Both the position numbers and the translations under genes were made by a program. Of a stretch of 64,000 bases of DNA, positions 7,917-17,620 are shown piece by piece (the stretch's first letter is position 1; every line of letters starts with the position of its first letter). The notes under the pieces are model-generated. The model saw nothing but the letters and a program-made list of their open reading frames with translations. It had not been told where the DNA came from and did not search any database. The DNA is from Pseudodesulfovibrio indicus (GTDB lineage Bacteria > Desulfobacterota > Desulfovibrionia > Desulfovibrionales > Desulfovibrionaceae), in contig NZ_CP014206.1 in NCBI RefSeq assembly GCF_001563225.1, positions 310,001 to 374,000 of the forward strand, read 5' to 3'.

Positions 7917-9509
7917 TCATCGCTCGCGAAGTGTCGCGAGATGCGCCCGTATTTCAGAATCCCCGTTGTCCAGGGCCGCGGCTTTCTCTGCCTCGGCCAC
8001 GGCCTCGTCCAACCGGCCCGCATGCTCATGCGCGCGGCTGAGCAGCAGACGCGCCTGCGCCAGGCACCCGGCCTCACGGTGTGAATCAGGAATGGACAGA
8101 TTGTAGTTTATCACTTCATTCGCGACGAGAGCGGCCCTGTCGACCTGTTTCACCGACAACAGCACCTGGCCCTGCGAGAGCTTGTTCTTCATCAAGGACG
8201 GGTCGGCGTCCAGGGCGCGCTTCATGGACTCGACAGCTGCGGCGCGGTCATGGCTCTTGTTGCTCAGACGGCTTTGGATAAGGTGCAATTCGCCATTGCC
8301 GGTCGGCCAGTGTTCCTCCCCCCGGGCCAACCAGAGAAGGGCTTCCTTGAAACACCCCTTCTTTTCCTCGAGGATCGCCAGGTGCCTGTAGGTTTCCCAC
8401 TCTGCCGGGTCGAGCCGGTTGGCGTTCCGGAAGCTCTCGATCGCTTCGTCGAGCCTCCCGGCCAACCTATACAGCCCGCCCAACCGGCTGTGGTACTCGG
8501 CTTTTTCCTCCAACTCCAAGGCCGCCCGCATGAGCTCGACCGATTCCTCGTTGCTCTTGCAGCAGAAGGACCGTTGGTACAGTCTGGCGCTTTCACTCGA
8601 ATCGAAATATGCGTCGCACAACCTGTTGACGATCTCCCCGACAAAGAACCCTTCCACATGGCGAAGGTCGGGATACCAGATGTCCCAATCCTTGGTCAGC
8701 ATGACGGACTCGAAGCTCGGAAAATACTCGACCTCCTCCCTGGCCGCGAGTTCGCCGCACACGGACCGGAGCTTGGACTTGGAGTGCAGGTTGGCGACGA
8801 TGACGTCGTCATCGGTGAACGTCCTTCCGAGCGGGATCGGGGAGGTGGTCAGCAGGAAGCGGGCCTTGGGATTGCGCGCCCGCACCAGGGCGATGGCGTC
8901 CTCGACGAAGCCGAGGCATTCGCCGTGGGAGAGGAGATGGAACACGAACCGTTCCCTATCCCGGATCATTTCCTTGATGGACGGCGCCTGCTGGATGAAA
9001 AGCCCGGTTTTGGTGTCCCGCCAGGCCTCGATCAACCCCAGGGTCATGACGACCAGTCCGCAGGAAAAGATGTTCCGCACCACGTCGTACAACTGCTGCC
9101 GCCGCTCCAGCAGCCTGTCGAACCCCACGGGCACATATCCGCCCAGTTGCAGGTCCACGTAGCCGCCTTGGCAGGGATACGTCAGGTCGTGCAGGTCCTC
9201 GGCCACGACCACGCCGTCCCTGTCGTGGATGCGCGCGGCCCAGCTGATCTCCTGGAAAATGGACGGCGGAGTGTATTTATTCAACATGCCGTTGCCGCCA
9301 CCCATGGGAAACTCTTCCTTGGGGACGCTGAAGTCCAAGGTGGGAATGGCAAAGCCGAGCCTTTGGAGATGTTTTTCGATGTTGCGGGCGAAACAGCTCC
9401 CCATGGTAAAGACGGTTGACCCTTCGGGGATACGCCCCTTGGCCGTCACCGCGGGCCACACCTGGGGCTTGAGGCGCGGGGAAGCTTTGCTCCAATGAGA
9501 AATGTCCAT
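7917..9509 (-). CDS. GSCFA-domain protein with C-terminal TPR repeats
   Basis: The 530 aa protein begins at an ATG (9509) with GGAG six bases upstream; the frame is open further upstream but without a better site. Residues 37-41 are GSCFA, inside [14 protein letters not shown], the defining motif of the GSCFA family (PF08885). These are SGNH-like proteins probably acting on acyl or glycan groups. The region to about residue 330 includes [12 protein letters not shown] and a YPDLRHVE segment with a His suitable for the catalytic site. From about 340 to the end are TPR-type helical repeats ([37 protein letters not shown]). No signal peptide is seen. The fusion suggests an enzyme in a protein complex; the substrate is unknown. 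Confidence 0.85.
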
Positions 9510-9681
9510 GAATCTCCATCCGTCGAGGCTTAAACAGTGTAATTCTTTACTTGTATTCCATGCCCTGATTTTAGTAAAGGTGGAAACACGGAGCGCCCCC
9601 CGCCCCCGGCCCCTGGCCGGGGCGGTGAGGCAGGCGAGCGCCATCACCCGGCAACCCCGCCGCAACCCATGGGAGGCAATC

Positions 9682-10098
9682 GTGAAATCATACAGAAAAG
9701 AACTTTTTTACGAGGTCCCGACCCGGCGCGCGTTCGTGAACATCACCGACGACGTGGAGGCGTGCCTGCGGGAGTCCTCCATCCGCGAGGGGCTGTGCCT
9801 GGTGAACGCCATGCACATCACCGCGTCGGTGTTCATCAACGACGACGAATCCGGCCTGCACCACGACTACGAGGTCTGGCTGGAGAAGCTGGCCCCGCAC
9901 GAGCCGGTTTCGCAGTACCGGCACAACGGATACGAGGACAACGCGGACGCGCACATGAAACGGCAGGTCATGGGCCGCGAGGTGGTGGTCGCGGTCACGG
10001 ACGGCAAGCTCGACTTCGGCACCTGGGAACGCATCTTCTACGGCGAGTTCGACGGCCGCCGCCGCAAGCGCGTGCTGGTCAAGATCATCGGCGACTGA
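9682..10098 (+). CDS. YjbQ/UPF0047 family protein (secondary thiamine-phosphate synthase type)
   Basis: A compact 138 aa protein of the YjbQ family. The GTG start at 9682 has GGGAGG six bases upstream; the frame is open earlier without a ribosome site. Family motifs seen are [44 protein letters not shown] and [11 protein letters not shown], with the conserved His and Asp residues. Some members have weak thiamin-phosphate synthase activity in E. coli assays, but the physiological role is unsettled. It stands alone between the divergent GSCFA gene and tRNA-Arg. Confidence 0.9.
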
Positions 10099-10155
10099 CG
10101 GCCCGACGAATATCCTTGACCTCCGCCACCCGCCTTATTAATGAGACTCGCACGC

Positions 10156-10232
10156 GCGCCAGTAGCTCAGGTGGATAGAGCATCGGCCTTCTAAGCCGAC
10201 GGCCGTGGGTTCGAATCCTACCTGGCGCGCCA
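10156..10232 (+). tRNA. tRNA-Arg (anticodon UCU)
   Basis: The 7 bp acceptor GCGCCAG (10156-10162) pairs with CTGGCGC (10222-10228), followed by G73 and an encoded CCA. The D arm is GCTC..GAGC, the anticodon stem TCGGC/GCCGA, and the loop CTTCTAA with TCT at 10190-10192. The T loop is TTCGAAT. It reads AGA codons. A weak hairpin with a T-run follows at 10240-10275. Confidence 0.97.
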
Positions 10233-10239
10233 AAATTTC

Positions 10240-10275
10240 AAGGGACTTGCGGGGATGCCGTGGGTCCCTTTTTCG
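10240..10275 (+). terminator. Probable terminator of tRNA-Arg
   Basis: AAGGGAC (10240-10246) can pair with GTCCCTT (10264-10270), followed by a T-run. The 17-base loop makes it modest. Confidence 0.5.
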
Positions 10276-10402
10276 TTTATTGCGGGGGCTCTCCGCGCGG
10301 GACGGGGGACATCGTTGTACAGGCCGGGCAAAACAGGGCATAAACGGGCTGCCGGATGGGGAATCGGAATAATCGGACAACGGGAATCGGGAGGAGAGTG
10401 CA

Positions 10403-10816
10403 GTGAAACATGCGGGGTCGTGCCTGTGCGGCAAGGTGACGTTTACGGTCGAGGGGGATTTCGAGCGGTTTTACCTGTGCCACTGCGAGCGGTGCCGGAA
10501 GGACACGGGCACCGCCCACGCGGCCAACCTGTTCTCCTCCACGGCCCGCCTGACGTGGCTGTCGGGGGAGGAACTTGTCCGGACCTTTGATTTCAACAAC
10601 ACCGGGCACATCAAGAGCTTCTGCGTCCTCTGCGGCTCGGCCCTGCCCAACATCCAGATGGACGGAACCCTGCTGGTCGTCCCGGCGGGGAGCCTGGACA
10701 GCGACGTCCCGAACCGCCCCGACGGGCACATCTTTACGGCCAGGCGGGCCAACTGGGATGCGGGGCTGGAGAATATCGTCGGCTTCGACGGACTCCCGGA
10801 CGAGGACGTAAAGTAG
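10403..10816 (+). CDS. GFA-family (glutathione-dependent formaldehyde-activating-like) zinc protein
   Basis: The 137 aa protein carries the zinc-binding pattern of the GFA/CENP-V family (PF04828): GSCLCGKV near the start, CHCERCRKDTG around residue 27, and SFCVLCGSALP around residue 72. The family name comes from formaldehyde-glutathione adduct formation, but most members have no proven activity, so a metabolic role is not claimed. The GTG start is set by GGAGGAGAG. It is a single gene between tRNA-Arg and a terminator. Confidence 0.88.
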   Translation: MKHAGSCLCGKVTFTVEGDFERFYLCHCERCRKDTGTAHAANLFSSTARLTWLSGEELVRTFDFNNTGHIKSFCVLCGSALPNIQMDGTLLVVPAGSLDSDVPNRPDGHIFTARRANWDAGLENIVGFDGLPDEDVK

Positions 10817-10881
10817 AACGGATTGCCTGCCCCGGACGCGGTCAGGCCGCCTACCGCCCGGCGCGCCTTGGAATGGACAAC

Positions 10882-11056: not shown

Positions 11057-13126
11057 TTAGAAGCGCTCGAAGTCCTCTTCACCCATGTCCATGTCGATTC
11101 CGTTGTCGATTCCGCTGTCGATGCCCTTGGTGCCGGTGTCGGCGCCGGAAACGGTCTTGGGCGCACGGGTCGAACCGGCGGGCAGGGAGCGGGGCGCGGC
11201 GCGTTTGGCCACCACGCGCTTGTGCCCGCCCGACGTCGTTCCGCCGTGCGCCACCTTGAAGAAGGTCATGGCCTCGGCCAGGGCCTGGGCCTGGGCGGAA
11301 AGCTCCTCGGAGGTGGCGGCCATCTCTTCGGACGCGGAGGCGTTGCCCTGGATCACCTGGTCCAGCTGGGTGATGGCCTCACCGATCTGGGACACGCCCG
11401 TGTCCTGCTCGGCCGAGCTGGAGGCGATCTCCTGGACCAGTTCGGCGGTGCGCCCGATCTGGGGCACCAGTTCGGCCAGCATCTGCCCGGCCTTGTCGGC
11501 CACGCCCATGGAAGCCTCGGACAGCCCGCCGATCTCCTCGGCGGCCTTGCCGCTGCGCTCGGCCAGCTTGCGGACCTCGGCCGCGACCACCGCGAACCCC
11601 TTGCCGTGCTCGCCCGCGCGGGCGGCCTCGATGGCCGCGTTCAGGGCCAGCAGGTTGGTCTGGCGGGCGATCTCCTGGATGATGGTGATGCGCTCGGCGA
11701 TGGACTTGAGGGCGTCCATGGCCTCGCCCACGGCCGCGCCGCTGTCCTTGGCGCCCTGGGCCGCCTTCATGGCGATGGCTTCGGTCTCCTGCGCGCTGCG
11801 CGTGTTGGCGCGCACGCCCGCGCTCATCTCCTCCACCGAGGCGGAGACCTGCTCGATGGACGCCGCCTGCTCGACCACGGACTGGGACAGGGACTGGGCC
11901 GAGGCGGACAACTCCTCGCTGCCCGCCGAAACCGCGTCGGTGGCGGAGTTCACCTCGCCCACCACGCGATTGAGGTTTTTGGCCATGTCGCTCAGGGACC
12001 GGGCCAGCTGCCCCACCTCGTCGTTCTGGTTCAGGTCCACGGTGGCGGTCAGGTCGCCGGAAGAGACCTCCTGCGCGAAGTCCATGCCCCTGCGCAGCGG
12101 GCCGATGATGCCGCGCGCGATGAGCCAGGCCAGGAACACGCCCAGGACGATGGAGACCACGGCGAAAATCATCACCCCCACCCTGGTGCTGGTGGCCTCC
12201 TTGAGCATCTCGTCGTCGGTCATGATGTCGCGGGAAATGATCTCCATGCTCTTGTTCAGGATTTCCTGCACCTTGTTCAAGGCGGGCATGGTCTTGCCGG
12301 TATAGACGGCCTTGGCGGCTTCATACCCGACCACGCGGGAATCGTTGAGGGCCAGGACGTGGTCGATGGCTGAAAGGGTCTCTTCGGCCAGGGGGCCGGT
12401 GATGTCACGGAACCACTCCTGGGCCTTGGCGCGGTCACCGGCGCCAAGCTCCACGTCGATCTCCTTGGCGGATTCGTGCAGGGAGCGGTGCGGCTCGTAG
12501 ATCGCCTTGACCAGTTTGCCGAATTCGGGGTCCGCCTCCATGCGCTTGGCGGTCTCTTCGGAATAGAGCCACTTGCCCAGGCCGCACTGGTGGGGATCTG
12601 CCTGAACGCCGGTCTCGCGCGCGCTCGGATTGATGAGCGCGTCCTTGACTTGGCCCATCCAGATCAGGTGGTCCAGCTTCTTGTCGCGCAGAAAGGAGCC
12701 CAGCTCAACGTCGGCGGGGGCGTACTTCTCTCCGATCTCGATGGCCGAGCGGTGCAGGTCGTTGTGCACGCCCTCGATATCCGCCATCAACGGCCGGATG
12801 GCCGGGACCAGGGTCTCGGCCTCGGTCCGGGCGTCGCTGTAGTACCATTTGCCGAAGGCGCATTTGTGGGGGTCGGTCTGGACGTCCAGGGTGTGGACGT
12901 GGGAATCGGCCAGCAGTTCGTTGACCTTTTCCGCCCATTTCAGATGGTCCACTACCTTCTGGGTAAAATTGCCCCGCAGCTTGTTGCCCGTGATGACTTC
13001 TCCGGCATTCTTCACGATGCCGTCGATGCCGAACAGCGCCCATGCCCCCAGAACCACGAGCAGCAGGAGCACCGAGCCGAACCCAACGCCAAATTTTACG
13101 CACAGTTTACAGTTTTTCCATCCCAT
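11057..13126 (-). CDS. Methyl-accepting chemotaxis protein with two extracytoplasmic CZB-like domains
   Basis: A 689 aa transmembrane chemoreceptor. TM1 is about residues 12-33 and TM2 about 316-337. The sensing region between them holds two CZB-like (chemoreceptor zinc-binding) units: His61, Cys89 ([12 protein letters not shown]) and His121/125; then His153, Cys181 ([13 protein letters not shown]) and His213/217. After TM2 come a HAMP-like linker and the signalling hairpin, whose tip contains [19 protein letters not shown]. The last residues EEDFERF fit the pattern of a CheR/CheB docking tail (x-F/W-x-x-F). The start has GGGAGGAAGTT. No chemotaxis operon is adjacent. The probable ligand is zinc or a zinc-linked signal, by inference. 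Confidence 0.93.
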
Positions 13127-13341: not shown

Positions 13342-14118
13342 TCAGCTTGAAAGATGTTTCAGCAGGGTTTGCACCAACCCGTCCAGGCGGTCGCTTTCCG
13401 GCAGCCCCAGGACGCTGGCGTTCGTCAGTTGGCGGGCTCCGAGGCCGGGCAGCGGCGGTATGGACAGGGACCACTCGGGCAGCCCCTCCAGGGCCGGGGA
13501 ACCATCCCCCTCGTACCGGTTGAGGACCAGGGCCTGGTTGGTCAGCCCGAGGTCCGCGGCCATGCGCCCCACCTCGGCCCCGGTCTGCAACGAGCGCATG
13601 GACGGCTCGGAGACCACCACCAGCCCGTCCACATGGGCCACGGTGCCGCGACCCAGGTGTTCCACGCCCGCCTCCAGGTCCACCAGCACCCACTCGTCGC
13701 GGTCCATGACCACGTGCGCCAACAACGCCTTGAGCAGCGCGTTGGCGTCGCAGGCGCAACCGCCGCCCGCGTTGGTCACCGCGCCCATGACCAGCAGCCG
13801 CTTGCGGCCGGGCGTCACGCCCTCGACCGGGTCGCCGCCCAGCGGCAGGTCCACGGCCAGCTCTTCCGGCAGGTCGCCCACCTCGGGGTTCAGGTTCAGA
13901 AAGCCGCCCGCATGGATGCGCTCGCGCACCAGGTCGCCGCGCCGCACCAGCGGCTCCGGCAACTCGTCCACGCCGAGCCCCGACGCCTGGCCCAGGGAGA
14001 GCGCGGTGTCCGCGTCCACCAGCCAGACGTTCCTGCCGCTCCGGGCCAGCCAGTCCGCCACCCAGGCGCACAACGAGGTCTTGCCAACGCCGCCCTTGCC
14101 CGCAAACGCTATTTTCAT
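13342..14118 (-). CDS. cooC: CO dehydrogenase maturation ATPase CooC
   Basis: CooC is a MinD/ParA-type P-loop ATPase that helps insert nickel into the CooS C-cluster. The 258 aa protein begins MKIAFAGKGGVGKTS, with the deviant Walker A at residues 7-15, then WLVDADTALSLGQASG, the pattern of CooC rather than a partition ATPase. The CACD segment (GGGCACDANALLKALL) matches the CxC motif that binds nickel/zinc in CooC dimers. The start at 14118 uses a GGAGG that lies inside a palindromic repeat cassette. It lies 290 bases downstream of cooS, with two repeat cassettes in opposite orientation between them. Confidence 0.92.
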   Translation of the reverse strand: MKIAFAGKGGVGKTSLCAWVADWLARSGRNVWLVDADTALSLGQASGLGVDELPEPLVRRGDLVRERIHAGGFLNLNPEVGDLPEELAVDLPLGGDPVEGVTPGRKRLLVMGAVTNAGGGCACDANALLKALLAHVVMDRDEWVLVDLEAGVEHLGRGTVAHVDGLVVVSEPSMRSLQTGAEVGRMAADLGLTNQALVLNRYEGDGSPALEGLPEWSLSIPPLPGLGARQLTNASVLGLPESDRLDGLVQTLLKHLSS

Positions 14119-14125
14119 GATGGAT

Positions 14126-14240
14126 GCCTCCGGCGGCCGGGGGAAGGGGAGAGGGAAACTTTTGGGATAAGTTTCCCTCTCCCCTTCCCCCGGACCCCCA
14201 TCCCCTCTCCTTTCCAAACTTTTTGGGTCGCTTCGCGAGG
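14126..14240 (+). repeat. Palindromic terminator cassette, copy 3, between cooS and cooC
   Basis: GCCTCCGGCGG begins at 14126. The stem is 14137-14163 against 14167-14193 with one mismatch, followed by the shared tail to 14240. Unlike the other + copies it does not follow a + strand gene: it lies upstream of cooC, antisense to it, and its conserved end supplies the GGAGG of cooC. Confidence 0.8.
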
Positions 14241-14339
14241 GGTGTACGAAAGCGAGGGCTTGTCTTCTTGAACCGGAAAAACCGAGGTTGGCCCCGGCGC
14301 TCCCTCCCGCTCCCTGCCGCACCCGAAGGCGCGACAAGA

Positions 14340-14406
14340 AGTTGGGGAGGGGGGGCCAGGGGGGCACCCCTTTTCAAAGGGTGCCCCCCTGGCCGCCGGA
14401 GGCCTT
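14340..14406 (-). terminator. Related palindromic cassette after cooS
   Basis: On the minus strand GCCTCCGGCGGCC comes first, directly after the cooS stop. A GC-rich stem follows (14354-14373 against 14376-14394), then a CCCCTCCCCAAC tail. Layout is as in the + strand cassettes, with a different stem sequence. Confidence 0.7.
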
Positions 14407-14407
14407 C

Positions 14408-16285
14408 CTACTCGCTCAGGCCGAGCGCCTTGCGCTTGGCCTTGATGCGCTCATCGAAGATCTCGGCTGTCCTGACCGGATCGGGTTCGATGAAGAACGC
14501 CGCGCCGACGAGGTCTTCGAGGCCGGCGACGGCGAGATTGGTGACGGTCTTGGACCCCAGGATGTGGGGCGGGTGGCCCAGGTGGGTCTGGATGCCGGAG
14601 GCCACGGCGTAGAGGCCGATGGCTGCGGCCTTTTCCGAGTACCATTCGGGCGAGGACGCGCCCACGGGCAGGTCGGAGATGTCCACGTTCAGGGTGTTGG
14701 CCAGGGCCGCGCACAGCTGCATGATGCGGGAGTTGTCCACGCAGGAGCCGTAGTGCAGGACCGGCGGGATGCCCAGCGAGCCGCAGATCTTCTTGAGGCC
14801 GGGACCGGCCATCTCGATGGCTTCGGGCACGAGCAGCCCGGCCTTGCCCGCGGCGGTGGTCACGCAGCCGGTGGCGATGACCAGGATGTCGCGCTTGATC
14901 AGCTCCTTGGCCAGGCCGACGTTCAGGGAGTCCTGTTTGATCTTGGGGTTGTTGCAGCCCACGATGCCGACCGCGCCCCGGATGTCCCCGGCCACGATGG
15001 CCTGGACCAGCGGGTCGAGGGAGCCGCCGAGCGCCGCGATGACCGCTTCGTTGGAGAAGCCGGTCATGATGTCGATGGGCTCGCAGGGGATGTCAACGCG
15101 GCCCTTGTCGCGCTGGGCGAACCCTTCCACGGCCAGGGACACGATCTCCTTGGCCTGGGTCATGGCGGTGGCGGGCTGGAAGTCGTAGTGAATGCCGCCG
15201 GTGAAGCGCGCCTTGTTGGCGGTGTCGATGAATTTGGTGTGGTAGCAGCCGGATATCTGGACCAGGGAGGGCATGATGCACTGGTAGTCCACCACGATGG
15301 CCTCCACGGCCCCGGTGATGATGGCCAGCTCGGTCATCAGGTGGTTGCCCGCCATGGGGATGCCCTGGCGCATGAGCAGCTCGTTGCCGGTGCAGCACAG
15401 CCCGGCCACGTTGATGCCGGAAGCGCCCAGCTCCTTGGCGCGGGCCACCAGCTGGGGATCGCGCGCCGCAGCCAGGATCATCTCGGAGACCACGGGGTTG
15501 TGGCCGTGGACCAGGATGTTGACCTGGTCCTCCTTGATCACGCCGAGATTGGCCGTGGACATGCGCGGCGTGGGCGTGCCGAAGATGACGTCGGACAGCT
15601 CGGTGCCGATCATGGACCCGCCCCAGCCGTCGGCCAGAGCCGTCCGGGCCGCGTGGATCAGGGTGTTGGGCGCGTCGTTGTCGCAACCCATGTGGGTGCG
15701 GTGCATCATCTCGGCGATCTCGCGGTCGACGCCGCGCGGGGTCATGCCGAGCTTGGCCCAGACGTCCTTGCGCTTCTGCGGCACGCGCGCCAGGAAGGAG
15801 ACCTCCTTCCGGCGGGAACCGAAATCGGCGAAGAATTCGTCCATGACGTCGTGGGCGACCTCCTTCACGGTCCGGCCCTCGGTCTCGATGCCGATCTCGC
15901 CCGCAATGGTCCGGAGCTTGCCTTCCTCGGTGATCTTGTAGTCCGTGGTCTCGCCCTCGACGATGGCCTCCAGGACCTCGATCAGGTCGCGGCCGTGGTC
16001 GGAGTGCCCGGCCGCGCCGCCGGCCACGAACCGGCCGAAGTTGCGGGCCACGATGACGTCCGCGTCCGCGCCGCATACGCCCAGGGGTTTTTTCTCGCTG
16101 ACCCGGCACGGGCCCATGGTACAGTTGCGGCAGGACGTACCCAGCTCGCACATCTTGCAATGCGGGGTCTGCTGGTCCAGCCGCTCGTGGACGGTCTCGA
16201 TGCCCTCGGCGCGCGCTTTTTTGAGCATTGCCTTGGCGTCGTCCCAGATGGTCAGTTCATCGATCGGTCTCGGTTCCTTTGCCAT
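14408..16285 (-). CDS. cooS: Anaerobic Ni-CO dehydrogenase catalytic subunit
   Basis: CooS oxidises CO to CO2 at a Ni-Fe-S C-cluster. The 625 aa length fits the family. Cys motifs are HCKMCELGTSCRNCTMGPC near residue 40 (D and B clusters), then GHNPVVSEM, GINVAGLCCTGNELL, CNNPKIKQDS, CVTTAAGKAG and HYGSCVDNSRI, which carry C-cluster ligands. AGGAGGTATCTC sets the start at 16285; the frame runs ten codons further upstream without support. A CooA-type operator lies 103 bases upstream, and cooC follows. No CooF ferredoxin or CO-linked hydrogenase genes are in the window, so the electron acceptor is unknown. Confidence 0.96.
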   Translation of the reverse strand: MAKEPRPIDELTIWDDAKAMLKKARAEGIETVHERLDQQTPHCKMCELGTSCRNCTMGPCRVSEKKPLGVCGADADVIVARNFGRFVAGGAAGHSDHGRDLIEVLEAIVEGETTDYKITEEGKLRTIAGEIGIETEGRTVKEVAHDVMDEFFADFGSRRKEVSFLARVPQKRKDVWAKLGMTPRGVDREIAEMMHRTHMGCDNDAPNTLIHAARTALADGWGGSMIGTELSDVIFGTPTPRMSTANLGVIKEDQVNILVHGHNPVVSEMILAAARDPQLVARAKELGASGINVAGLCCTGNELLMRQGIPMAGNHLMTELAIITGAVEAIVVDYQCIMPSLVQISGCYHTKFIDTANKARFTGGIHYDFQPATAMTQAKEIVSLAVEGFAQRDKGRVDIPCEPIDIMTGFSNEAVIAALGGSLDPLVQAIVAGDIRGAVGIVGCNNPKIKQDSLNVGLAKELIKRDILVIATGCVTTAAGKAGLLVPEAIEMAGPGLKKICGSLGIPPVLHYGSCVDNSRIMQLCAALANTLNVDISDLPVGASSPEWYSEKAAAIGLYAVASGIQTHLGHPPHILGSKTVTNLAVAGLEDLVGAAFFIEPDPVRTAEIFDERIKAKRKALGLSE

Positions 16286-16387
16286 GAGATACCTCCTATC
16301 CCTTTCGCCGGACAACGTCGCAACCCGCCCGGCCGTGTCTAGAACCCTATATGGACCCCAACCCTACCAGATCCTGGCGGCGGCGTA

Positions 16388-16403
16388 TGTCGGCCAGCCG
16401 ACA
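16388..16403 (-). promoter_or_regulatory. CooA-type operator upstream of cooS
   Basis: TGTCGGCCAGCCGACA is a perfect 6-4-6 palindrome. It reads TGTCG-N6-CGACA, one base from the published CooA consensus TGTCA-N6-CGACA. It sits 103 bases before the cooS ATG. A weak -10 candidate (TAGGGT on the minus strand) lies 21 bases downstream, which would put the site near -41, a class II activator position. Confidence 0.75.
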
Positions 16404-16708
16404 AAAACGACGAAAAGTGGAAAAAAAGTGGCGAATCGGGCCGAAAAAACCCCTCTTCGTTAAAAACACAGACGAATTATATGGATAAAACGGCGTGTTG
16501 TGGAAATACGGCCACGACGGGTGATGAATTGTTCATGCGAGCTGACCGTGTTCCCGCCCGGCACGCTTCCTTTTTGGCCCACAGGGTGGACACATTCCGG
16601 GAAGCCACGTATGGGCAGGGGTAATATTCTCTAGGAAAACCGGCAGACGCGAACGAATACTCGAACCGCAAACAAGATGCCCTCTTCAGGCAACACCCGG
16701 GAGTAGAC

Positions 16709-16960
16709 ATGGTTAAACACAATGATCTCAAAGGCGCCCTGGACTTCATCAAGCAAGGTTATTCCAAGAGCGGGGACCCCTTCCGCTTCACCGTCTCCGA
16801 CATTGCCGATGCAATGAACCTGACCGAGACCAAGGCCAGGGACGTGGTCAGCACGATCAATACCCGCGCCCGTTTCTGGCGGGGGCATTTCCCGGCCGCG
16901 GCCGACGGTTTCGCCGTGGACGGCCCGGTCATCGAACGGCTCCAGGGCTGGTTCGAATAA
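16709..16960 (+). CDS. Small hypothetical protein, 83 aa, between cooS and cooA-like gene
   Basis: I do not recognise this family. It begins MVKHNDLKGALDFIKQGYSK and contains FRFTVSDIADAMNLTETKARDVVSTI, which looks like a helix-turn-helix, followed by RARFWRGHFPAA. It could be a small DNA-binding protein. A GGGAG ribosome site precedes the ATG. It is transcribed away from cooS and meets the cooA-like gene end to end (stop 16960, next stop 16961). Its upstream region (16404-16708) holds no other gene. A link to CO control is suggested only by position. Confidence 0.7.
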   Translation: MVKHNDLKGALDFIKQGYSKSGDPFRFTVSDIADAMNLTETKARDVVSTINTRARFWRGHFPAAADGFAVDGPVIERLQGWFE

Positions 16961-17620
16961 TTACGACGCCCCGGACCCGGCCGCCCGCTCCAGGGCGTCC
17001 AGGTCCGGGATGAAATACTCGCCCCGACCGCGCTTGTGCATCAGCCCGGCGCGCTCCATGTCGTTGAGCAGGGTGGACACGGTCTGGCGCGTGGCCCCCA
17101 TGAGCTGGGCCAGCTGCTCGATGGTCAGGTTCACCTTGAGCACGCAGCCGCCGTCCAGCGGTTCGCCCGAGGCGCGGGCCTCGCTCAGGATGTAGTCCAT
17201 GAGCCGGTTGTAGATGTCCTTGAAGGCCAGCCCGCCGATGATGGAGAACGAGTTCTTGAGGATGTGCCCGAGCACGCGGACCATGGTCCGGGTGAACAGG
17301 GGAATCTCGGCCATGCACCGCTTGACCGAGCGCACGTCCGTGAGCAGCAGCTCGACCTCCTCCAGGGCCTGGATGTAGCAGCCGGAGTGCGTGGAATAGG
17401 GGTCGCCGGGGTTGAGGATGGCCAGGGTGAACTCCTTGTCCTCGTAGGCCAGGTAGACCCGAACCCTTCCCGCCGCGACCACGAAGACCATGTCCTCCTC
17501 GCCTTCGGGCCGGAAGACGACCGTCCCCTTGGCGTAGGTCCGCCTGCGGAACACGGACCGCAGATCGGCCAGCTCTTGCCGCTCCAATTCGTCCAGAAGA
17601 TTGACGCCGGTGAATTTCAT
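16961..17620 (-). CDS. cooA: CooA-like CO-sensing CRP/FNR-family regulator
   Basis: This is a CRP/FNR-family regulator of 219 aa that resembles CooA, the heme-based CO sensor. Residues 45-57 (VFVVAAGRVRVYL) and the segment ending HSGC at 78-81 match CooA closely. The heme ligand His77 of Rhodospirillum CooA corresponds to His78 here; the Cys75 position is Ser76, as in several CooA homologues that use another ligand when oxidised. The HTH is LTIEQLAQLMGATRQTVSTLL, with the RQT recognition core of CooA. The start at 17620 follows a GGGGAG site. The matching operator upstream of cooS supports the assignment. A different CRP-family role cannot be excluded. Confidence 0.85.
   Translation of the reverse strand: MKFTGVNLLDELERQELADLRSVFRRRTYAKGTVVFRPEGEEDMVFVVAAGRVRVYLAYEDKEFTLAILNPGDPYSTHSGCYIQALEEVELLLTDVRSVKRCMAEIPLFTRTMVRVLGHILKNSFSIIGGLAFKDIYNRLMDYILSEARASGEPLDGGCVLKVNLTIEQLAQLMGATRQTVSTLLNDMERAGLMHKRGRGEYFIPDLDALERAAGSGAS

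Follow-up and report, generated by a model that had tools for sequence, protein, structure and literature searches.

A predicted CooA-controlled carbon monoxide dehydrogenase operon in Pseudodesulfovibrio indicus

We analyzed a 64,000-nucleotide stretch of the Pseudodesulfovibrio indicus genome (the window; G000:C1:310001-374000 of a closed 3.97 Mb genome), in which the minus strand carries, in the order of transcription, cooA (17620-16961), an operator, cooS (16285-14408), and cooC (14118-13342). Based on sequence comparison, we assign a probability of about 0.88 to the interpretation that these elements form a CooA-controlled carbon monoxide (CO) dehydrogenase operon of a sulfate reducer of the Pseudodesulfovibrio group; homology, conserved gene order, and phylogenetic footprinting support this core interpretation. 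A first-pass annotation had placed cooS, cooC, and a CooA-like gene together from position 13342, which is the end of cooC, and homology confirms the grouping. Its interpretation of the region as a CO sensor, an operator, a CO dehydrogenase, and a maturation factor also stands, whereas its emphasis on an off-consensus operator and an unusual serine does not. The finding is real and was correctly read in outline, but it is ordinary: operons of this type have already been described in related organisms. For Desulfovibrio, the available text of PMC545781 and PMC2901600 gives both the gene order cooA-cooS-cooC and the operator consensus, and the latter, a 2010 review, describes there a conserved gene context of Desulfovibrio CO dehydrogenases in which cooS is preceded by cooA and followed by cooC. 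Our small additions are the spacing between the operator and a promoter TA and a stem-loop after cooS. The core features are the following.

16961-17620, minus strand: cooA, encoding a predicted CRP/FNR-family heme CO sensor of 219 amino acids (phmmer matches to the CooA structures 2fmy, 2hkx, and 1ft9; Pfam cNMP_binding and HTH_Crp_2; motif across relatives)
16388-16403, minus strand: predicted CooA operator, TGTCGGCTGGCCGACA, an exact TGTCGGCNNGCCGACA with its centre at 16395.5 (published consensus; corresponding site with at most three mismatches in all 29 loci with visible cooS)
14408-16285, minus strand: cooS, encoding the catalytic subunit of a nickel CO dehydrogenase (Ni-CODH) of the structural group E-2 type, with a type III D-cluster C43-x2-C46-x5-C52 (TIGR01702; 6b6v family; ligand motifs)
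13342-14118, minus strand: cooC, encoding a predicted MinD-type ATPase for nickel insertion with P-loop GKGGVGKT and CxC (best match 3kje; Pfam CbiA)

Two sets of relatives were compared. The genus set comprises 36 genomes, four of them less than 90% complete, and a CooA search of these genomes returned 30 loci (L028-L057, including that of the window), one per genome, each with a best match of at least 42% identity; the identity is at least 63% in 27 of the 30. G027, although it contributed none of these loci, also has a CooA of 45% identity, and second CooA proteins are present in G012 and G028. Downstream of cooA, cooS is visible in 29 of the 30 loci; in L055 none is found within 3.65 kb. 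The named set consists of 54 loci chosen by a peptide pattern from the subfamily of the window CooA, with record titles that range from Geomonas to Spirochaetes and Firmicutes; it overlaps the genus set and is not a sample of all CooA proteins.

The operator is the perfect palindrome TGTCGGCCAGCCGACA (16388-16403), whose centre lies 110 bp before cooS. The perfect TGTCG-N6-CGACA palindrome that had been noted upstream of cooS is present, and it is the only exact occurrence in the window, for which shuffling predicts 0.11; because 10 of 100 shuffled windows hold at least one, the palindrome by itself has only modest weight. Genome-wide, TGTCG-N6-CGACA occurs at two places and the full TGTCGGCNNGCCGACA at one. 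The comparison of relatives carries more weight: each of the 29 genus-set loci in which cooS is visible has, between cooA and cooS, a site with 0-3 mismatches whose centre is 74.5-124.5 bp upstream of the start of the cooS match, and from this recurrence we judge a chance origin of the operator to be very unlikely. The genome of P. indicus contains 170 places with at most three mismatches to the full consensus in 3.97 Mb, the exact one included, so that well under 0.1 such sites would be expected per cooA-cooS gap. The operator had been described as one base off the CooA consensus, by which the site of Rhodospirillum rubrum was presumably meant. It instead matches the published Desulfovibrio consensus TGTCGGCNNGCCGACA exactly; the available text of Rodionov 2004 (PMC545781) gives this consensus for coo operons from R. 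rubrum and from two species of Desulfovibrio.

The window regulator is homologous over its full length to solved CooA proteins. Its closest solved relative is 2fmy (CooA-1; 186 bits, E 5e-54, residues 1-212), and the R. rubrum CooA structure 1ft9 is matched with 144 bits; the best structure that is not a CooA, 4k8f, reaches 71 bits over residues 23-128, and the next full-length one 55 bits. Residues R178, Q179, and S182 of the recognition helix, which we take to be DNA contacts, are invariant in all nine aligned CooA proteins. The alignment equates His78 and Ser76 of the window CooA with His77 and Cys75 of R. rubrum. All 30 genus-set loci and all 54 named loci (the sets overlap) keep His at the position of the axial heme ligand, and the position of Cys75 is occupied by Ser, Ala, or Thr in all 30 genus-set loci and by Ser (44), Ala (7), or Thr (3) in the named loci. 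The retained His and the Ser were thus correctly noted in the first-pass annotation; it is the Ser as a peculiarity that does not hold across the 30 and 54 loci. Since Ser, Ala, or Thr stands in all loci read, the ferric Cys75 thiolate ligand of R. rubrum is unavailable here; this ligand is an R. rubrum-type feature and does not define the whole CooA family. The heme ligands of Carboxydothermus hydrogenoformans CooA are said, in the available text of PMC6955866, to be Ala2 and His82 without a ligand swap, and that protein is said to manage without a Cys ligand. Given this and the residues found across the loci, a Ser is to be expected in the window CooA and is no argument against CO sensing. 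C. hydrogenoformans CooA-1 (2fmy) shares the His position with the window CooA, and it has a Cys at the 75 position (FCTH) although its ligands are given as Ala2 and His82 in the same portion of PMC6955866. The absence of the R. rubrum ligand Cys75 from the CooA proteins compared in this group bears on whether CO sensing there is redox-gated.

CooS scores 684 bits against the NCBIfam CO dehydrogenase model TIGR01702 (cut-off 478), and its closest solved relative is 6b6v, which we take to be the Desulfovibrio vulgaris enzyme, with a match over residues 7-624 of 625. The type III D-cluster motif Cys-x2-Cys-x5-Cys is found as CKMCELGTSC at residue 43, and the C-cluster set of one His, five Cys, and one Lys is complete (HGHNPV, GLCCTG, YQCIMPS, GCNNPK, TGCVTTA, GSCVDN, SPEWYSEKA), the motifs being assigned to ligands after CODH-II of C. 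hydrogenoformans. Group E-2 Ni-CODHs are described in the available text of PMC6344411 as having a type III D-cluster and an association with CooC; D. vulgaris CooS, of this group, has the same D-cluster, a complete C-cluster motif, and the CooC association, and we found no difference at the motif level. CooC matches its closest solved structure, the CooC structure 3kje, over residues 1-203. It contains the MinD-type P-loop GKGGVGKT and a CxC motif, CAC aligned to CYC of 3kje, which we take to be the metal site; among curated models, only other models of the MinD/ArsA type match it, all below cut-off. In seven of the ten genus-like named loci, those that are long enough (L103, L105, L107, L109, L110, L111, and L151), cooC follows cooS.

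The footprint around the operator, obtained by aligning 29 genus-set loci on the operator without gaps, suggests two promoter elements.

16361-16366, minus strand: predicted -10 element TAGGGT, its first T 29.5 bp downstream of the operator centre (ungapped footprint)
16413-16416, minus strand: T-tract, a candidate contact of the C-terminal domain of the RNA polymerase alpha subunit, about 20 bp upstream of the operator centre (T columns)

In order, the footprint consists of the T-tract, the palindrome, a TAC directly after it, and a poorly conserved stretch, beyond which T is found in 29 of 29 loci at +29.5 from the operator centre, A in 27 of 29 at +30.5, and T in 20 of 29 at +34.5. The 29 loci are relatives and their columns are not independent, yet adjacent columns carry little information. 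Three columns of the T-tract have T in 26, 27, and 28 of the 29 loci, the window having C at the first. This arrangement implies a predicted transcription start near 16354 and an operator centre at about -41.5, suggesting class II activation; an operator centred near -41.5 is in the class II position of CRP-type activators. The spacing was checked in 25 named loci with a cooS start in reach, ten genus-like loci having been excluded beforehand; six of the 25 were dropped for more than three mismatches and 19 were kept. TAnnnT occurs at the same offset in 7 of the 19 and within 1 bp in 11, the other 49 offsets totaling 9, and the remaining 8 loci lack TAnnnT within 1 bp of the offset. One of these loci, L120, is identical in sequence to genus-set locus L056, and another two, L136 and L137, seem to be a twin pair; once L120 and one member of the pair are removed, the counts are 5 of 17 and 9 of 17. 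We regard this check outside the genus-like set as supportive, not decisive, for the predicted spacing. We did not meet the operator-to-TA spacing in the available portions of the CooA and coo literature, in which no search aimed at that spacing was made. The footprint gives a precise promoter model for CooA in sulfate reducers.

Taken together, these features suggest the following path. CooA would bind heme via its His, and CO would displace the other axial ligand, allowing CooA to bind the 16-bp palindrome before cooS. With its operator at about -41.5 and a start near 16354, CooA would then recruit RNA polymerase as a class II activator and induce cooS. CooC may help in nickel insertion, after which CooS would oxidize CO to CO2 and its type III D-cluster would pass electrons to ferredoxin-like carriers and from there to an Ech-type hydrogenase or the electron pool of sulfate reduction. 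Detoxification of CO or scavenging of CO made by the cell is more likely to be the main role than growth on CO.

Several observations weigh against a CO-responsive operon of this kind. CooA and CooC reached no NCBIfam equivalog, matching only other or generic models below cut-off, the -10 element of the window (TAGGGT) is weak, and a CooA of at least 42% identity was not found in 5 of the 36 genus-set genomes. In addition, the available parts of published work state that D. vulgaris CooS and CooH were neither co-expressed nor co-purified without added CO and that the CO dehydrogenase of Desulfovibrio alaskensis G20 was unimportant for fitness in any condition tested there.

The regulator might also be related to CooA but respond to redox state, NO, or O2, like some heme proteins of the CRP/FNR family, with CO control of cooS being indirect. 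The residue at position 75 is never Cys in the two overlapping sets of 30 and 54 loci and an R. rubrum-like Cys/His switch is therefore impossible there, and a CooA-related heme protein with another proposed signal is described in the available text of PMC6955866. Nevertheless, we consider a different signal improbable given that all loci keep the heme His, that a CooA is the solved structure matched best, and that the CO dehydrogenase operon is the one clear conserved target to emerge; the same text of PMC6955866 also states that C. hydrogenoformans CooA works without a Cys ligand. Still less credible is the alternative of a constitutive cooS with a palindrome that arose by chance or is unrelated to it. 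The frequency of the palindrome in shuffled windows would allow it, but all 29 loci have a near-consensus site in this interval, at an unchanged distance from a near-invariant TA, and a consensus for it is published.

With CO control of cooS by CooA as the preferred reading, the fate of the electrons is the next question on which alternatives differ. The first-pass annotation stated that no CooF or hydrogenase genes are nearby, which holds for the annotated stretch, and called for a genome search for cooF and a coo hydrogenase. We took CooH and CooF queries from the coo hydrogenase operon of G028, named from order and motifs; among the 36 genomes, orthologues of CooH (82-100% identity) and CooF (67-100%) are found only in G012, G027, and G028, the same three that carry the CooA of 44-45% identity, and matches to the CooF query elsewhere in the genus set are at most 49%. 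Protein searches of the closed P. indicus genome found no orthologue of either: the best match to CooH, at 40%, is an Ech-type large subunit, and the best to CooF has 32% identity (E up to 1e-15). By these searches, no R. rubrum-type system of CooF and CooMKLXUH was found in the genome, and CO sensing and oxidation without the Coo hydrogenase, which was found in 3 of 36 genomes, is indicated as the usual state in the genus set. The suggestion that CO oxidation feeds another electron carrier is plausible. The available text of PMC6344411 describes the CODH D-cluster as the electron exit to ferredoxin-like proteins, and in our reading the electrons from CooS enter the general ferredoxin pool.

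CooS may instead work with an Ech-type hydrogenase encoded elsewhere, producing H2 from CO in a split hydrogenogenic CODH/ECH system. The genome contains a complete-looking Ech-type operon (G000:C1:3697174-3702224) of six frames whose sizes and arrangement are as expected, its large subunit matching Pfam PF00346/PF00374 and the name Ech being a reading of operon architecture, and distal coupling is stated for Carboxydothermus pertinax in the available text of PMC6557876. Set against this are the lack of a CooF orthologue, the lack of a CooA site before the Ech-type operon (the best in 500 bp has five mismatches, and CooA control of this operon was rejected), and the occurrence of Ech-type large subunits (38-41% identity to CooH) in 34 of the 36 genomes, including the five without a CooA of at least 42%. 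We therefore regard such a division of labor as unlikely, though a good deal less so than a different signal for the regulator. The genome also encodes two other [NiFe] hydrogenase large subunits. In L101 (G028:C6) and L102 (G012), the second CooA (44-45%) adjoins a coo hydrogenase operon, and the operon in G028 also includes CooF and a second CooS-like protein (L101:10004-12001, named by eye).

Further CooA targets were sought with the strict motif TGTCGGNNNNCCGACA, which gave 22 sites in the 36 genomes of the genus set, 18 of them at cooA-cooS. Because a reversed-pattern control gave 12 sites, the 4 that lie elsewhere are no more than chance, and inspection of all four contexts revealed no coherent target. 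A genome search for more TGTCG-N6-CGACA sites, also proposed by the first-pass annotation, found one besides the operator, TGTCGCATTTGCGACA at G000:C1:1329316-1329331, near a TetR-like gene according to its open reading frame (ORF); no CO gene was seen in the 5 kb inspected, and this second site is probably due to chance. Places with at most three mismatches, of which a part was listed and inspected, number 170 in the P. indicus genome and 271 in the reversed control, and weak sites are uninformative because they are fewer than in the control. Near the second CooA and coo hydrogenase operon of G028 and G012, no CooA site with fewer than four mismatches was found. Two more CODH-like proteins are encoded close together in the P. 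indicus genome (G000:C1:1416255-1421827; L097:5256-7298 and 8837-10828), next to an apparent formate dehydrogenase and a DUF169 gene. Both have a His-rich N-terminus and a Glu replacing the second C-cluster Cys and fit the published structural group B-1; CooA control of these two CODHs was rejected, their best sites having five mismatches.

Among described systems, the closest are those of D. vulgaris Hildenborough and D. desulfuricans (alaskensis) G20, for which the available text of Rodionov 2004 (PMC545781) and PMC2901600 gives the same three genes, order, and operator consensus. Strain G20, like P. indicus, is said in the available text of PMC2901600 to have only the CODH operon, whereas D. 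vulgaris also has cooMKLXUHF there. The window may differ from these two genomes in its small divergent ORF between cooA and cooS and in its two strong stem-loops in the cooS-cooC gap. The R. rubrum regulator is homologous and its published sites are part of the same consensus (available text of PMC545781), but R. rubrum has Cys75, CooF, and the associated hydrogenase, whereas here Ser occupies that position and neither of the latter two was found.

The cooS-cooC gap of the window contains two near-perfect inverted repeats.

14351-14397, no strand assigned: stem-loop 1, directly after the cooS stop, with 22-nt arms (near-perfect inverted repeat; -50.3 kcal/mol, z -4.8)
14132-14198, no strand assigned: stem-loop 2, between cooS and cooC, with 30-nt arms (near-perfect inverted repeat; -63.6 kcal/mol, z -6.2)

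In 22 loci with both cooS and cooC in reach, the window included, the first 75 nt after the cooS stop were folded and compared with shuffled sequences. The gap is at least 50 bp in 16 of these loci, with a mean z of -3.4 and with 9 below -3 (the other 7 are weaker, the weakest being -0.9 in L114), and 8-34 bp in the remaining 6; two gaps, those of L142 and L149, include a likely coding extension of cooC and are in reality shorter. Controls from cooS coding sequence had a mean z of -0.26, and none of 16 control means fell below -3; these controls do not include the stops of other genes, after which hairpins are common. The stem-loops vary in sequence from locus to locus, and a terminal T-run is rare: at least four T directly follow the stem only in L124 and L114, L130 has a broken run, in L155 the run lies inside the folded stretch, and the window has none. 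Our guess is that the stem-loop after cooS may lower the dose of CooC and set the CooS:CooC ratio. Because hairpins after stops are common, we offer this as a hypothesis, with chance placement of ordinary post-stop hairpins as the competing explanation of the signal. More broadly, we tentatively propose, while thinking it doubtful, that two linked layers of control operate: a class II CooA promoter with strict spacing and a post-cooS stem-loop that recurs across families by position, not sequence, and ends or stabilizes many transcripts such that CooC is sub-stoichiometric, the ratio being set by translation in the 6 of 22 loci that leave no room for a stem-loop, with CooA proteins of the group sensing CO free of the redox gating that the Cys/His pair provides in R. 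rubrum.

The core of stem-loop 2 has a near-identical copy at 451-479 of the window, 13.7 kb away, and no further copies with at most three mismatches were found in the P. indicus genome. In L142 (a Deltaproteobacteria metagenome-assembled genome) and L149 (Geomonas limicola), a His-rich stretch precedes the cooC match and may extend the N-terminus of CooC as a nickel-binding segment similar to CooJ.

The remaining feature lies between cooA and cooS.

16709-16960, plus strand: small divergent ORF of 83 amino acids, predicted to be winged-helix-like, a lineage-specific insert (relatives; alignment; AlphaFold)

This ORF is present in 8 of the 36 genus-set genomes and lies between cooA and cooS in 7 of the 8; G020 has it though no CooA of at least 42% identity was found there. 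It is well conserved, with 26 of the 83 columns invariant in seven sequences, and the AlphaFold model has a pLDDT of 81.5. The ORF has no Pfam or NCBIfam match, and in a fold search no match reached an E of 0.001, Rex-type winged helices being the best at E 0.037. It is unlikely to be a direct target of CooA, with its start 305 bp from the operator, and no evidence examined links it to CO. Directly downstream of cooC on the same strand (11057-13126 of the window) lies a gene for a methyl-accepting chemotaxis protein that contains two zinc-binding stretches of the CZB type.

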